Below, one piece after another: positions 25,291 to 31,939 of a stretch of 34,197 nucleotides of DNA. The DNA lies in the NCBI GenBank assembly GCA_012517825.1, contig JAAYUG010000082.1, positions 1 to 34,197 of the forward strand, written 5' to 3'. Each line of letters begins with the position of its first letter. Within the stretch, counting starts at the first letter, position 1. The notes beneath the pieces were generated by a model. The model did not search any database. It had not been told where the DNA came from and was given only the letters and a program-made list of their open reading frames with translations. Made by a program: the position numbers and the translations under genes. Source of the DNA: Bacteroidales bacterium (GTDB lineage Bacteria; Bacteroidota; Bacteroidia; Bacteroidales; JAAYUG01).

Positions 25291-26409
25291 TTATCTTCCG
25301 GTATTCCAGACCTTCTGACTTGCCGAAAACCTCAGAAAAAGCCCATAGGAATAATCCGGATCTTTAAAGTAAATATCATAAAAGAAATCCCCCCGAAGAC
25401 CAATGATCAGATAGGGAGATATTTGCTTCCCGATGAACAAACGGCTTACCAGCATTCTTCTGCTTTGCTGATATTGGTCTTTATCAAATGCCCATGACCA
25501 GAAGATCGGGTCACCTTTGGGCGCATAAAAGTCTTCAGCCAGCCAGAAACCATTTTCCCATTCAATTCCTGAACCGGATAAAGAAACAGAAGGGAACACC
25601 GCATACCCTTTTTTCATGGGTAACTGCGAGGTTGGCGAAACATCGGAAAATCCGATAGCTGTAAAACCTGCAGTAAACTTCTGTATGAGAGAATGATCGG
25701 TGCTGAAGGAAACATAACCCCCTCCTCCGTAATGAAACAGGGTTTGTATAGGCAGATGACTGACATCAATCTGGCCTCCTCTGTGGGTTGCCAGAATGTA
25801 AAGAGGAAACCTGATTTCCTGCCTGCCCTGCCCAATATGACCGGTCAACCAACCTGAATAACCAAAAGTCAATCGCTCCTGATTATCTTCATATCGTTCC
25901 AGAAAACGGTCCCACTGAAGCCATACATCGGAAAAGCAGGCAGGCGAAACATAACGAATCTGTATTCCATCCTCAAGTACCTCATTCAGGTTCCGTTCCG
26001 TTCCGTAAAGTGCTTCCGGCAGCCGGTGTTCTCCGGCTCCCCGGATGGTTCCGGCCATCAGACTGATCCTGTCATTTAAATTGGTCTGTAAGGAAATGAC
26101 GGGAAAAATCTTCTTGACTTGTTCTTGCCCGCTGTATTTCAAAACATGAAAACCGCCGAAAAATGAAACGTGCTGGTCTGCTTTCCATTCAAGAACCGGG
26201 GTAAGGTGGATTCCGATCAGGGTATATCCTTTGTAAAGCGGGTTGAAGTACTCATTGTTCCTGAAAAAAGCGGTGGAATTCAAACGGAGGGTAAGAGCCC
26301 CGCTGTCAGACGGAGGAGCAAAATCCCCCTGCCGGAAAAACGGGTCAGATACCTGGGAGTAACCAGAAAAACTGATTAACAGAAAAAGGATAATATACGT
26401 TCTGTACAT
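25291..26409 (-). CDS. Predicted outer-membrane beta-barrel protein, unknown function
   Basis: The 372-residue product has a signal peptide (1-18, YIILFLLISFSGYSQ). The mature part has alternating hydrophobic strands with aromatic belts, such as ISLMAGTIRG, QIRYVSP, LFHYGGGGYVSFS and LIIGLRGDFFYDIYF. The C-terminal strand ends YGLFLRFSASQKVW rather than in a classic terminal F. This pattern fits an outer-membrane barrel of the sort widespread and unnamed in Bacteroidota. I do not recognise a specific family. It is convergent with the DUF5916 gene and divergent from the DUF2723 gene, from which 115 bases separate it. Confidence 0.7.
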   Translation of the reverse strand: MYRTYIILFLLISFSGYSQVSDPFFRQGDFAPPSDSGALTLRLNSTAFFRNNEYFNPLYKGYTLIGIHLTPVLEWKADQHVSFFGGFHVLKYSGQEQVKKIFPVISLQTNLNDRISLMAGTIRGAGEHRLPEALYGTERNLNEVLEDGIQIRYVSPACFSDVWLQWDRFLERYEDNQERLTFGYSGWLTGHIGQGRQEIRFPLYILATHRGGQIDVSHLPIQTLFHYGGGGYVSFSTDHSLIQKFTAGFTAIGFSDVSPTSQLPMKKGYAVFPSVSLSGSGIEWENGFWLAEDFYAPKGDPIFWSWAFDKDQYQQSRRMLVSRLFIGKQISPYLIIGLRGDFFYDIYFKDPDYSYGLFLRFSASQKVWNTGR

Positions 26410-26524: not shown

Positions 26525-29500
26525 ATGATGAAAAAATATGCACTGATTAATAATATCACCGGCTGGGTGATATTTGCCGTTGCCGCAGTTGTGTACCTGC
26601 TTACCATGGAACCCACAGCCAGTTTCTGGGATCCGGGGGAATTTATCGCCACAGCTATGAAACAGCAGATCGGACATCCTCCGGGAGCCCCGTTCTTTAT
26701 GATCATGGGAAGATTTTTCACCCTTTTGGCCGGAAATGATCTGAGCAAGGTTGCTGTGTGTATGAATGCCATGTCGGCTCTGGCCAGTGCCTTTACCATT
26801 CTGTTCCTTTTCTGGAGCATTACACATCTGGCAAGGAAAATTCTGATAAAGGAAGAATCTGATCTTTCCGCCGGAAACATTATTGCCATTATGGCTGCCG
26901 GCATGGTCGGTGCCCTGGCCTATACATTCTCCGATTCGTTCTGGTTTTCCGCAGTGGAAGCCGAAGTATATGCTACTTCCTCGCTGTTCACCGCCCTGGT
27001 TTTCTGGCTTATGTTGAAATGGGAAGAGGCAGCCGACAAACCCCATTCGCACCGGTGGCTCATTCTGATTGCTTTTCTGATGGGATTGTCCATTGGAGTT
27101 CACCTCCTCAACCTCCTCGCCATTCCGGCGCTGGTTTTTATCTATTACTTCAAAAAATACACCGTTTCGCGCTGGGGCATTGTTAAGGCACTCGGCGTCA
27201 GCATCCTCATTCTTGGAGCCATTTTGTATGTTATTATCCCTGGAATCCCCTGGCTCGCGTCCATCTTCGAACTGATTTTTGTCAATGGCTTCGGGCTCCC
27301 GTTCAACTCGGGCCTTATATTCTATGTTATTTTACTCAGTGCATTGACTATCTGGCTGATATGGCTGACCTACCGGAAAAAAATGGTGGGGTTAAATACC
27401 ATCCTTACCGGCGTGGCGGTTATTCTACTCGGGTACTTTTCCTATGGAATGATTGTCATCCGCTCTTCGGCAAATCCCCCTCTGAATGAAAACAACCCTT
27501 CCAATGTTTTCTCCCTCCTTTCTTATCTTAACCGTGATCAGTACGGCGACAGACCTCTTTTTAAAGGACAGTACTATAACGCACCCCTGATTGAATCAAA
27601 ACAGGGCAAAGCCATTTACACACCCATCGGGCGTAAATATGTAAAAACAAGCTATAAACCAGAATACGTCTACGATGAACGCTTTACAACCATATTCCCG
27701 CGCATGTACAGCGATGATCCTCGACATATTGAAGCCTACAAACACTGGGCAGGTATAAAAGGCAAACCGGTGAGGATTACCGGCAACGACGGAAAAACCA
27801 AAACCGAGTATGTCCCCACCTTTGGCGAAAACCTGAAATTTTTCTGGAGATACCAGCTTGGCTGGATGTACTTCCGTTATTTCATGTGGAATTTTGCCGG
27901 CCGCCAGAATGACATCCAGGGAAATGACGGCTCCATAATCGGCGAAGGAAATAAGCTCTACGGAAACTGGATATCGGGCATCAAATTCCTGGATGAAGCC
28001 CGGCTGGGACCGCAGGATAATCTTCCTTCAACGCTTGCAACGAACAGGGGAAGAAACACGTACTATCTTCTCCCTCTCCTGCTCGGTTTGGTTGGATTGG
28101 TTTACCATTACCGCCGGAATCCGAAAGATACGGTGGTTGTATTCTGGCTCTTCTTCATGACCGGAATAGCCATTGTCCTCTATCTGAACCAGAAACCCCT
28201 TGAGCCAAGAGAAAGGGATTATTCCTACGCTGGTTCATTTTATGCGTTCGCCATCTGGATAGGCTTGGGAGTTCTCGCTCTCTATGAACTGCTGCGGAAA
28301 TACCTCCCTTCAGTGGCAGGTGCTTCTATCAGCCTTGCCCTTTGCCTCTTTGCGGTACCGATGATAATGGCCGCCGAAAACTGGGACGACCATGATCGTT
28401 CAGGCCGCTATACTGCCCGCGATTTCGCCATCAATTACCTTGAGTCGTGCGATTCCAATGCGGTCGTTTTTACCAACGGTGACAACGACACATTCCCCCT
28501 CTGGTACGTTCAGGAAGTGGAAGGAGTCAGGACAGACGTCCGCGTGGTAAATCTGAGCTATCTGGGTGCCGACTGGTACATTGACCAGATGAAACGGAAA
28601 GTCTATTCTTCAGATCCCCTGCCGATTCGTTTTACCAGCGATCAGTACCGGCAGGGACGAAGAGATGTTGTCTATATTGTTGAACGCACCCAGGATAAAA
28701 TTCCCCTGAACGAAGCCCTCTACAACTGGCTGGGCAGTGATGACCCACGTACCAAAAGCATACCCGGGTACCAGGGATCATTCGACTACCTGCCGGCCAA
28801 AAATTTTACATTGCCCGTTGACACTTCTGCCATCAGAAGCGCAGGAATTCTTACAAGCCGCGAACTGCCCTCTATGGTGTCCTCAATCGACATCAAAATT
28901 GACAAAAACTATATCACAAAGAGCGACATGCTGGTGCTGGATATGCTGGCCACCAGCAACTGGACAAGACCTCTGTATTTTGCCGTTACTGTTTCGCGCG
29001 ACAACTGGCTTGGGCTGGATCCTTACCTCAGGCTCGAAGGACTCGCCTACCGGATTGTTCCCGTTAAAGGTTCTACGGATATTGCCCGTCCCGGAACCGT
29101 TGCCGCCGACATTATGTACGACAACATGATGAATAAATTCCGCTGGGGCGGTATCGATAACCCCCATGTATACCTTGATGAAAACAACCAGAGAATGCTG
29201 CTCAATATGCGGAACAATTTTGCCCGGCTCGCTGAGGCGCTCCTGGCGTCAGGAAAAAACGATTCAGCCCGCAAGGTACTCGATCGCTGCATGGAATTGC
29301 TCCCTTCTTCCAGGGTACCCCACAACTTCTTCAGCCTGCCTCTCATTGAAATGTTTTACCGGACCAACCAGCCCGAAAAGGCCGGAGCGGTTGTCACTGA
29401 CCTTCTGAAAACTCTCTCGGAAGAACTCCATTACTACTACCGCCTTAACCAGAAATTCCCCAATGAAGCAGACTATGAACGAAGACTCGATTTCTACCTG

Positions 29501-29611
29501 ATGAGTGAACTCGATGCCTTAACAAGAAAATATGACCAGAAGGAACTGAACAAAAAAATTCAGGAAGAATTAAAGAATGTTTCCATTCTCTATGGAATTC
29601 CCAGTGAATAA
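26525..29611 (+). CDS. DUF2723-family polytopic membrane protein (TMEM260/GT-C-like)
   Basis: The 1028-residue protein is a large integral membrane protein of the DUF2723 family. The first luminal/periplasmic loop carries the family signature FWDPGEF (34-40; acidic residues D36 and E39) and QIGHPPGAPFFMIMGR (48-63). Around ten membrane segments follow to about residue 620. A long soluble C-terminal part (about 630-1028) includes NGDNDTFPLWYVQEVEG and ends in TPR-like helices. Eukaryotic TMEM260, of the same family, is a protein O-mannosyltransferase, so a lipid-linked-sugar glycosyltransferase is plausible. The bacterial substrate is unknown. The deacetylase gene starts 3 bases after its stop, so they share an operon. 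Two ATGs lie in tandem (26525 and 26528); either may be used. Confidence 0.9.
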   Translation: MMKKYALINNITGWVIFAVAAVVYLLTMEPTASFWDPGEFIATAMKQQIGHPPGAPFFMIMGRFFTLLAGNDLSKVAVCMNAMSALASAFTILFLFWSITHLARKILIKEESDLSAGNIIAIMAAGMVGALAYTFSDSFWFSAVEAEVYATSSLFTALVFWLMLKWEEAADKPHSHRWLILIAFLMGLSIGVHLLNLLAIPALVFIYYFKKYTVSRWGIVKALGVSILILGAILYVIIPGIPWLASIFELIFVNGFGLPFNSGLIFYVILLSALTIWLIWLTYRKKMVGLNTILTGVAVILLGYFSYGMIVIRSSANPPLNENNPSNVFSLLSYLNRDQYGDRPLFKGQYYNAPLIESKQGKAIYTPIGRKYVKTSYKPEYVYDERFTTIFPRMYSDDPRHIEAYKHWAGIKGKPVRITGNDGKTKTEYVPTFGENLKFFWRYQLGWMYFRYFMWNFAGRQNDIQGNDGSIIGEGNKLYGNWISGIKFLDEARLGPQDNLPSTLATNRGRNTYYLLPLLLGLVGLVYHYRRNPKDTVVVFWLFFMTGIAIVLYLNQKPLEPRERDYSYAGSFYAFAIWIGLGVLALYELLRKYLPSVAGASISLALCLFAVPMIMAAENWDDHDRSGRYTARDFAINYLESCDSNAVVFTNGDNDTFPLWYVQEVEGVRTDVRVVNLSYLGADWYIDQMKRKVYSSDPLPIRFTSDQYRQGRRDVVYIVERTQDKIPLNEALYNWLGSDDPRTKSIPGYQGSFDYLPAKNFTLPVDTSAIRSAGILTSRELPSMVSSIDIKIDKNYITKSDMLVLDMLATSNWTRPLYFAVTVSRDNWLGLDPYLRLEGLAYRIVPVKGSTDIARPGTVAADIMYDNMMNKFRWGGIDNPHVYLDENNQRMLLNMRNNFARLAEALLASGKNDSARKVLDRCMELLPSSRVPHNFFSLPLIEMFYRTNQPEKAGAVVTDLLKTLSEELHYYYRLNQKFPNEADYERRLDFYLMSELDALTRKYDQKELNKKIQEELKNVSILYGIPSE

Positions 29612-29614
29612 GGA

Positions 29615-30238
29615 ATGACCGATAGATGGATTCTGAAAGCTGGTATGCGGGTTTATCCCGGGGCTGTCTGGAAGCTGAATCCTGCCCGGAAAGAAATTGC
29701 CCTTACATTTGACGATGGCCCCGAACCGGAAGTAACCCCAAAAGTGCTGGACATCCTTGCACAATATGCCCTCCAGGCAACTTTCTTCTGTTTGGGAAGC
29801 AAGGCCGAAAAATTGCCTTCCATCGTCCGGCAGATCAGAGATCAGGGACATACCATCGGAAATCATTCCTACAGCCATCCCAACGGATTTCTTACCGGGT
29901 TGAAAACATACACCGCAGATGTGGAAAAAGCGCATGCAATCCTCCAGACTTCCCTGTTCCGTCCGCCGTATGGACGCATCAGACCTTTGCAGTACAAGCT
30001 CCTTTCAGAGAATTTTCTCATCATATTCTGGAATGTAATGTCGTACGATTTTCATCCCGGATTTACTCCTGAAAAATGCCTGAACCACTGCCTGCAAAAC
30101 CTTGAAAATGGCGCTGTGTTCGTCTTTCACGACACCCTCAGGGCTTCCCGAAATCTCCTGACTTTTCTGCCGGTATTTCTGGATACATTAGCAAAACAGG
30201 GCTATCGGTCTGTTATACCCGGTAATGCGATCAAGTAA
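29615..30238 (+). CDS. Polysaccharide deacetylase (NodB/CE4 family)
   Basis: CE4 enzymes remove N-acetyl or O-acetyl groups from glycans such as chitin or peptidoglycan. The 207-residue protein has the full motif set: TFDDGP (31-36, D33 and D34), HSYSH (84-88, metal ligands H84 and H88), RPPYGR (116-121), D145 within MSYDFHP, and VFHDT (170-174). No signal peptide is visible, so it acts in the cytoplasm or needs another route out. It sits 3 bases after the DUF2723 gene, and its TAA overlaps the next ATG by one base (base 30238), suggesting translational coupling with the HprK-like gene. Confidence 0.92.
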   Translation: MTDRWILKAGMRVYPGAVWKLNPARKEIALTFDDGPEPEVTPKVLDILAQYALQATFFCLGSKAEKLPSIVRQIRDQGHTIGNHSYSHPNGFLTGLKTYTADVEKAHAILQTSLFRPPYGRIRPLQYKLLSENFLIIFWNVMSYDFHPGFTPEKCLNHCLQNLENGAVFVFHDTLRASRNLLTFLPVFLDTLAKQGYRSVIPGNAIK

Positions 30239-31137
30239 TGTACCATTATACCACTTTCGGACTTCGTATCCGTTCAGACATCGAATTACCTGAACTCGGA
30301 GAACCGGGCAGGGAAGAAAAACCCGACCTTACCATCACCTTCAGACCTATCCCCGGCGAACTGCCGGAGGCCTTATACCGGGGAAAAAGTTTCCAGATCA
30401 GCCCCTCACAGGTACTGATCCGCATTGAACAGGTAGCCGGATACCTGGTCAGAAACGGGCAGGAAATCATTATAGACCCTTCCCATACTGCCGAAATGGA
30501 TCTGGTCAGAGTATTTCTGCTCGGACCTGTCATCGGAATTGCCCTTCATCAGCAAGGATTTCTTGTTTTGCACGGCAGTTCTGTCCTATGGAACCATCAG
30601 GCCATCATCTTTGCAGGGGCTTCGGGCAGCGGAAAATCAACCATTGCAGGAGCTCTCATCCGCCGCGGCTTCCCTTTCCTGGCTGACGACCTTTGCCCCC
30701 TCCGCATGGAAAACAACATGCCCCTTTTGCTTCCTTCTATTCCCCAGCTGAAACTTATGGAAGATGTACTGCCGGAACTTGATTTTTCCCCCGAGTCCGC
30801 TGTCAGACTTTCCTCCGTCACAGCCAAATACGGCATATCCTTTGCAGAGAAAATTTCCGCAGAACCTCTTCCCGTTCGTATGATTTTTATTCTTCAGTCT
30901 GAACCAACGGAAAAAGATATCCGTATGGAGCAGTTGTCGGGGGTTGAGAAATTTCATGCCCTGAAAGACAACACCTACCGGTTCCCTCTTTTGCATTATA
31001 TGAATCTTACAACCAGGCATTTCGGCCTTGTTACCAGCGTGGCTAAACAGGTAACCGTTTACCGGATCATCCGGAATACCGGAATTTCAGTTGAAAAAAC
31101 TGCCGCTACTGTCACTGAATTCCTTTCCCGTTTGTGA
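30238..31137 (+). CDS. HPr-kinase-like ATPase (HprK C-terminal-domain family)
   Basis: This 299-residue protein has an N-terminal domain (1-105) of unknown fold, then a HprK/P-type P-loop kinase domain. Walker A is GASGSGKST (127-135), preceded by HGSSVL (112-117). The acidic motif LADDLCPL (148-155) resembles the Walker B/magnesium site. Regulated HPr kinase normally acts with HPr, but this is a stand-alone divergent copy. Such HprK-like proteins occur in lasso-peptide and other RiPP clusters and in the HPr-rel-A-type systems, next to PqqD proteins, which is the case here. It overlaps the deacetylase stop by one base. Whether it phosphorylates a peptide, a protein or nothing is not known. 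Confidence 0.85.
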   Translation: MYHYTTFGLRIRSDIELPELGEPGREEKPDLTITFRPIPGELPEALYRGKSFQISPSQVLIRIEQVAGYLVRNGQEIIIDPSHTAEMDLVRVFLLGPVIGIALHQQGFLVLHGSSVLWNHQAIIFAGASGSGKSTIAGALIRRGFPFLADDLCPLRMENNMPLLLPSIPQLKLMEDVLPELDFSPESAVRLSSVTAKYGISFAEKISAEPLPVRMIFILQSEPTEKDIRMEQLSGVEKFHALKDNTYRFPLLHYMNLTTRHFGLVTSVAKQVTVYRIIRNTGISVEKTAATVTEFLSRL

Positions 31138-31160
31138 ACCAGAGTGAAATTTTTCCTGTG

Positions 31161-31168
31161 TATCTTTG
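31161..31168 (+). promoter_or_regulatory. Putative -7 box (TATCTTTG) before the PqqD-like gene
   Basis: A full TAnnTTTG match lies in the 69-base gap between the HprK-like stop and the ATG at 31207. A TTTG at 31131-31134 is 26 bases upstream, longer than the usual 19-21. If active, PqqD-like and B2-like genes could be transcribed independently of the upstream genes. Confidence 0.45.
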
Positions 31169-31206
31169 TGGCAGAAATCAATAACTGAAAAACCAATACC
31201 TGCAGA

Positions 31207-31485
31207 ATGACCATTCAGGAAAACACCTTCTTCCGCCGCAATCCCGACCTGCTTTTCAGCGACATGGACGGCGAAACGGTAATGATGAGCATACAGAACG
31301 GAGAGTATTACGGCCTGGATGAAGTAGGTTCCCGTATCTGGCAATTGCTTGAAAACCCGGAATCTGCGGAAACACTCACGGATAAACTCATCGAAGAGTA
31401 TGAAGTTACTCGGGAAACCTGTCTCTCGGATGTGATGGAATTTCTGAACATGCTGGCCGAAAAACAACTTATTATCCCTGCCTGA
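31207..31485 (+). CDS. PqqD-family peptide-recognition (RRE) protein
   Basis: PqqD-type proteins are small winged-helix recognition elements that hold the leader of a RiPP precursor for a modifying enzyme. The 92-residue product matches that class in size and pattern: NGEYYGLDEVGSRIWQLLEN (31-50), TLTDKLIEEYEV (57-68) and C72 followed by SDVMEFLNMLAEKQLII. In lasso-peptide clusters the same protein is called B1. The stop at 31485 is followed after one base by the B2-like gene start at 31487, which is the typical B1-B2 pairing. No signal or membrane segment is seen. Confidence 0.9.
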   Translation: MTIQENTFFRRNPDLLFSDMDGETVMMSIQNGEYYGLDEVGSRIWQLLENPESAETLTDKLIEEYEVTRETCLSDVMEFLNMLAEKQLIIPA

Positions 31486-31486
31486 C

Positions 31487-31939
31487 ATGCCGGGAAAGAA
31501 TCCTCGTCCGTTTTTGGTCCGTATCCTGCGGGTTCCGCTAAATGACTGGATTCTTTTCGCAGAAGCTTTTTTTCTCCTGTTGCTCTGGCGGCTTGTAACC
31601 GCTCTTGCACCGCTTCGTTGTTACAGCAAATACCTGGGAATACCGCAGAAAGACTATTCTCCCACCCGTATGCCTTCCTCTGATAAAGTTGACAGAATAT
31701 GCCTGGCGTTGAGAAGAGCCAAAAAATATTCCGTAATCCCGGTGAAATGCCTCACAGAAGCAATCACTGCAAAAAGAATGATGGCCCGGAGAGGAATTCC
31801 TTCAGCCCTGTATCTTGGAGTATTTCATGAAAAAAACAGCAGCAAACTGAAAGCCCATGCATGGCTCCGATATGGCAATCAGTTTATAACAGGCCGGAGA
31901 GGGCATGAAAAATTCACCGTCGTTTCGGTATTTGTATAG
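31487..31939 (+). CDS. Lasso-peptide-biosynthesis-B2-type transglutaminase-like cysteine protease
   Basis: B2 (McjB-like) proteins cut the leader from a RiPP precursor with a cysteine-histidine-aspartate site. The 150-residue product is a typical size and carries IPVKCLTEAITAKRMMARRG (84-103), with C88 the expected nucleophile, and KAHAWLRYGNQFITG (122-136), with H124 the expected base. The usual acidic third residue is not obvious; N131 lies nearby. A hydrophobic stretch (about 21-41) precedes the core. The gene starts one base after the PqqD-like stop. It ends four bases before the nitroreductase stop on the other strand. Because no macrocyclase gene is present, I call this lasso-like rather than lasso-making. 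Confidence 0.85.
   Translation: MPGKNPRPFLVRILRVPLNDWILFAEAFFLLLLWRLVTALAPLRCYSKYLGIPQKDYSPTRMPSSDKVDRICLALRRAKKYSVIPVKCLTEAITAKRMMARRGIPSALYLGVFHEKNSSKLKAHAWLRYGNQFITGRRGHEKFTVVSVFV

Follow-up and report, generated by a model that had tools for sequence, protein, structure and literature searches.

A lasso-type kinase, PqqD-type RRE and leader peptidase beside a deacetylase in a Bacteroidales genome: the probable half of a split lasso-peptide pathway

The window is a 34,197-nucleotide stretch of Bacteroidales DNA, contig C82 of a metagenome-assembled genome (MAG). Toward its right end, on the plus strand, is a polysaccharide deacetylase gene (PDA; 29615..30238; Polysacc_deac_1, Pfam PF01522, 9.2e-28). 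It is followed on the same strand by K, an HPrK-like kinase (30238..31137); B1, a discrete PqqD-type RRE (31207..31485; PqqD, PF05402, 2.3e-21; NF033536 lasso_PqqD_Bac, 99.2 bits against a cut-off of 80); and B2, a transglutaminase-like leader peptidase (31487..31939; Transglut_core3, PF13471, 7.4e-21; NF033537 lasso_biosyn_B2, 78.6 bits against a cut-off of 33). The open reading frame coordinates bear out the head-to-tail order, strands and spacings given in an earlier note on this DNA: PDA and K overlap by 1 base (TAATG), K and B1 are 69 bases apart, and a single base separates B1 from B2. The families named in that note are confirmed by Pfam and NCBIfam, the kinase through matches that are both below cut-off (Hpr_kinase_C, 1.4e-5; NCBIfam HprK_rel_A, 7.1e-11). 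Two features were missing from it. The gene for a TMEM260-like (DUF2723) membrane protein (26525..29611, plus strand; Pfam PF11028, 1.2e-75) is directly 5' of PDA, with 3 bases between its stop and the PDA start, and a pattern scan located a -7-like element, TATCTTTG (31161..31168, plus strand), inside the 69-base gap. On the minus strand, positions 25291-26409 match the LpxZ family model at 163 bits (cut-off, 460) and are divergent from the TMEM260-PDA unit.

K keeps the H...GxxGxGKS...DD kinase motif when aligned and compared with the motif in PMC10368454, and it is predicted to be a lasso-precursor kinase. The nearest solved chains to B1 are 9x90, a lasso PqqD chaperone, and 5v1u, TbiB1. 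In B2, the Cys (VKCLTEA) and the His (HAWLRYG) are retained, and conservation of a third triad residue was not seen in the alignment used. B2 is the sole B2 family match in its own genome; as a single-protein query against the named genomes it found no relatives. PqqD-family matches in the same genome number three, of which the window B1, at 76 bits, is the sole strong one; the others score 43 and 22. A PqqD-like protein on contig C108 was rejected as a lasso B1 because it is a weaker match and adjoins an ATP-grasp-looking gene. This short, 82-aa protein lies upstream of the ATP-grasp-looking gene and of two more that resemble a PLP decarboxylase and a large membrane/M23 peptidase, all on one strand (L052:3254-5949; names by eye), and the group is possibly a second, different RRE-bearing cassette.

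Discrete B1, B2 and HPrK-like K proteins are also found in the systems for paeninodin (PadeK) and the bsf system of Bradymonas (PMC10368454), and the kinases of both carry the same H-G-G-G-K-S-D-D motif as the window K. In the bsf system, the discrete B1 is the leader-binding protein and B2 the leader-cutting one, and the HPrK-like K phosphorylates the precursor with the help of B1 (PMC10368454). In the Paenibacillus case, as cited in PMC7533575, the kinase acts on the C-terminal Ser. Lasso clusters with an HPr kinase and a sulfotransferase were noted in 2014 (PMC4289311). By sequence, K, B1 and B2 are the phosphorylating and leader-processing half of a lasso-peptide pathway. The remaining parts of such a pathway were sought nearby. 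Family searches found no cyclase (C) in the window, and a small-ORF motif scan found no convincing precursor (A) in the window or in the sister species G001. Neither a sulfotransferase nor a nucleotidyltransferase is present beside the window K, and no dedicated ABC exporter (D) was seen among the annotated pieces.

The deacetylase is a neighbor of this set. It carries the NodB-type motifs TFDDGP, NHSYSH, RPPYG and FHD, seen by eye. Of the 198 genomes of the order, 158 have a PDA homologue (E 1e-30 or better) and 23 have a B2 above cut-off. Among the 30 best PDA loci, 22 have a TMEM260 gene directly upstream (some of the remainder are too short to judge), and 13 of these 22 are in genomes without B2. 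PDA thus pairs with TMEM260, and TMEM260-PDA is a separate conserved unit, a neighbor outside the lasso machinery. The same pair stands upstream in the window, though across the order it is common in genomes without any B2. The coupling of the deacetylase to K, B1 and B2 as one system, proposed in the earlier note, is not supported by these counts. A single functional cassette of all four genes, for example one for glycan-linked RiPP maturation, is very improbable. The 1-base overlap of PDA and K would suit it, and so would the closeness of the two genes in nine of the 24 genomes with B2, where at most 14 kb separates PDA from B2 and B2 is in every case 3' of PDA, against 0.18 such genomes expected when genomes are treated as independent. 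These nine genomes (G000, G001, G009, G098, G119, G126, G154, G157 and G168) belong to seven families; G154, whose B2 scores below the Pfam cut-off, is the 24th. Against a shared cassette, the other 15 of the 24 have no PDA within 14 kb, the lasso genes vary in how far away they lie and in how they are oriented, and the TMEM260-PDA pair occurs in genomes without lasso genes. The placement of lasso genes 3' of PDA is a real conserved position and not evidence for shared chemistry; the adjacency accords better with a long-standing lasso site 3' of TMEM260-PDA than with shared function.

In relatives, the site downstream of TMEM260-PDA holds full clusters with a cyclase, precursor, sulfotransferase and nucleotidyltransferase. 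In locus L040, TMEM260-PDA is followed by a nucleotidyltransferase and a lasso-like cyclase on the opposite strand, then K, sulfotransferase, B1, B2 and precursor. L041, L050 and L051 have cyclase, K, B1, B2 and precursor close to PDA in arrangements that differ from L040. The full clusters L034, L040, L050 and L051 share the K, B1 and B2 families of the window, and the last three are likewise near TMEM260-PDA. Each of these four clusters of the order has its own C and A, in most cases along with a sulfotransferase, while the window is missing all three, and its K-to-B1 interval consists of the 69-base gap alone.

The window genes could be read as the remnant of such a complete locus, from which C, A and the sulfotransferase have been lost. 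The full cluster at the equivalent site in relatives such as L040 agrees with this reading, as does the equally reduced set in G001, which belongs to the same genus and is the single close relative compared. The four-gene order pointed out in the earlier note thus recurs in a second species: G001 keeps TMEM260-PDA-K-B1-B2, with a convergent nitroreductase, at 71-92% protein identity for the four genes. At a synonymous divergence (dS) of about 0.7-1.0 between window and G001, dN/dS is 0.20 for PDA, 0.18 for K, 0.054 for B1 and 0.25 for B2, the highest of the set. All four are under purifying selection. Because dN/dS is 0.05-0.25, no gene of the four is a decaying pseudogene, and K, B1 and B2, for which dS is about 0.7-0.8, have intact frames with zero frameshifts between the two species. 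These values argue against a remnant, which we consider unlikely, as we do its corollary that K-B1-B2 would persist without a lasso product and be either disappearing or reused for an unknown peptide.

The TATCTTTG box in the K/B1 gap is common to both species and resembles the Bacteroidota -7 element. In pattern scans, no -33 element was located at the expected distance from TATCTTTG, and the TANNTTTG pattern was not enriched across the window. For these reasons, a separate promoter for B1-B2 in the 69-base gap is put forward as possible.

A candidate for the other half of the pathway was found on a second contig of the same genome, C67. A search for Asn synthases identified a 610-aa protein (L062:8728-10560) that scores highest in NCBIfam against the lasso cyclase model NF033535, at 315 bits. 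This is below the cut-off of 525, as is the 372 bits of a full-cluster cyclase. In this order, lasso cyclases cannot be told from other amidotransferases by family score alone, so a tree, the N-terminal Cys and the neighboring genes were used instead. In the tree, the C67 cyclase groups with cluster-borne lasso cyclases and is split 100/100 from the cyclases of genomes without B2. The C67 and cluster-borne cyclases lack the N-terminal Cys that is present in 9/9 of the no-B cyclases of the tree and in both other Asn synthases of the genome, and the C67 protein keeps SGGYDS. Those two Asn synthases, on C163 and C92, start with MCG, fall outside the lasso clade and were rejected as lasso cyclases. 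Relatives of the C67 cyclase occur in Chloroflexi, delta-proteobacteria and other groups, often with a precursor directly downstream. Among these loci in other phyla, B1, B2 and/or K adjoin the cyclase in 38 of 44, with all three in 16. Two delta-proteobacterial/Geobacter MAG loci, L176 and L185, have repeated B1-C units with two cyclases and three B1 genes. No B2 was detected near these units, and it may be absent, divergent or elsewhere. Misbinning of C67 is unlikely, as its tetranucleotide signature matches the window (r of 0.84, the value for the sister species, against 0.29-0.66 for other genomes). Four tests, namely the best NCBIfam match, the tree, the missing N-terminal Cys and the genes beside its relatives, support the prediction that the C67 Asn synthase is a lasso-type cyclase.

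One nucleotide after the cyclase stop, a 44-aa precursor-like ORF begins (L062:10562-10696), which reads MKKENYIEKNFRKVWIKPALIVGKAKKTE / EAADNGDDGILNFGS. It has the family leader motif, in which W, P and T are spaced as in the cluster precursors, and it conforms to the pattern of a W/YxxPxL leader, Thr at -2 and Asp/Glu at 7-9. A local full-sensitivity profile search with all filters off placed it 4th among 1,128 small ORFs with an E of 0.028; the three ahead of it were one training-set member and two other cyclase-linked precursors. The whole-genome precursor-profile search did not recover it, a negative that is uninformative because the cyclase-linked precursor of G168 was missed too. Its C-terminal residue is Ser, as in 10 of the 11 precursors used for the model. 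Glu as core residue 1 would be unusual. The ORF shares the xxxPxL leader motif of paeninodin and bsf, and its Ser is a candidate for the phosphosite, which is a Ser in those systems.

The C-A pair on C67 is of the matching kinase-linked subfamily, and its presence in the genome is a further point against K-B1-B2 as a remnant. The earlier reading of K, B1 and B2 as lasso or RiPP genes is also strengthened by the location of C and A on another contig. K-B1-B2 (30238-31939) is probably half of a split lasso pathway, with A-C on C67 as the other half. We infer that the two loci act together: the C67 pair would be served in trans by the only B2 of the genome and by the lasso-type B1 and K of the window. 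In this mechanism, B1 would bind the WxxPxL part of the leader, and K, with the help of B1, would phosphorylate the precursor, most likely at the C-terminal Ser. B2 would cleave following Thr-Glu to give the predicted core EAADNGDDGILNFGS. C would then join residue 1 to Asp7 or Asp8, for a ring of 1-7 or 1-8. The roles of K, B1 and B2 are assigned from characterized systems, in which B1 binds the leader, B2 cuts and K phosphorylates; the cut site, ring and phosphosite of the C67 precursor are predictions from its sequence. In the known paeninodin and bsf systems (BsfA/B1/B2/C/K/N), A, C, K, B1 and B2 are in one cluster, whereas in this genome the A-C pair is on C67 and K-B1-B2 on C82. The dispersed arrangement of the core lasso genes would be what is new; the type of pathway is already known.

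C82 and C67 are fragments of a MAG in 207 pieces, and the split might be apparent, with the lasso genes linked on the chromosome. In favor of this, C82 stops 2.3 kb past B2 and C67 stops 1.5 kb past A. Synteny with G001 runs beyond the right end of the window, though, and the parts of G001 that were read, including about 50 kb around the cassette on the syntenic 80-kb contig, contain neither C nor A. The failure to find C or A in a search of the G001 genome would tell against a split pathway, but that assembly has a completeness of 76%, and cysS, the neighbor of A-C, is missing from it. Other genomes also speak against linkage, which is highly improbable.

Unlinked lasso parts occur in five further genomes of the order. 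In G168, K-sulfotransferase-B1-B2 is on one contig and A-C on another. G148 has C, B2 and K-B1-sulfotransferase on three separate contigs of 150-208 kb. In G035, C, A, B2 and two B1-sulfotransferase pairs are on separate contigs. G039 has a C with a broken open frame about 25 kb from K-B1 and its B2 on another contig. G165, which is assembled in 6 contigs, has a full cluster on one of them and a further A-C pair on another. Since the contigs of G148 and G165 are long, fragmentation hardly accounts for the separation in these two. The G039 lasso-type cyclase (L099:7542-9528) is broken, and a short tandem repeat lies close to the point where its two open frames meet. G054 is possibly a further split case, with B1-sulfotransferase on one contig and B2 plus a precursor-like truncated ORF on the other (L165, L046).

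A broader and more tentative idea, which we consider possible but doubtful, is that the lasso enzymes of the order are unlinked trans-acting modules, one set of which serves A-C pairs elsewhere in the genome, possibly several. With the same reserve, the modules may be K-B1-B2, or B1-sulfotransferase plus B2, and may also serve cyclase-less precursors. If this is true, the rule of one cluster for one product would no longer hold.

In the literature searched, which took in few subscription papers, no description of core lasso genes divided among loci came up. The citrulassin pathway similarly needs an enzyme from elsewhere in the genome, as its PAD tailoring enzyme is encoded outside the cluster (PMC12971885). 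There, the tailoring enzyme alone is unlinked, whereas in the present genome the precursor and cyclase are apart from two core proteins, the leader peptidase and the RRE. Mining for lasso peptides depends on the adjacency of C, B1, B2 and A, and a split pathway would therefore be overlooked by the usual cluster searches. The discrete lasso RRE model of RRE-Finder retrieved almost 8,000 proteins, of which about 4,000 co-occur with a leader peptidase and cyclase and the remainder were treated as possible false positives (PMC7470986). Split systems may account for some of these proteins. Unlinked pairs of precursor and enzymes are now concrete and testable, and they raise the question of how a RiPP pathway keeps its integrity when its parts are inherited separately.
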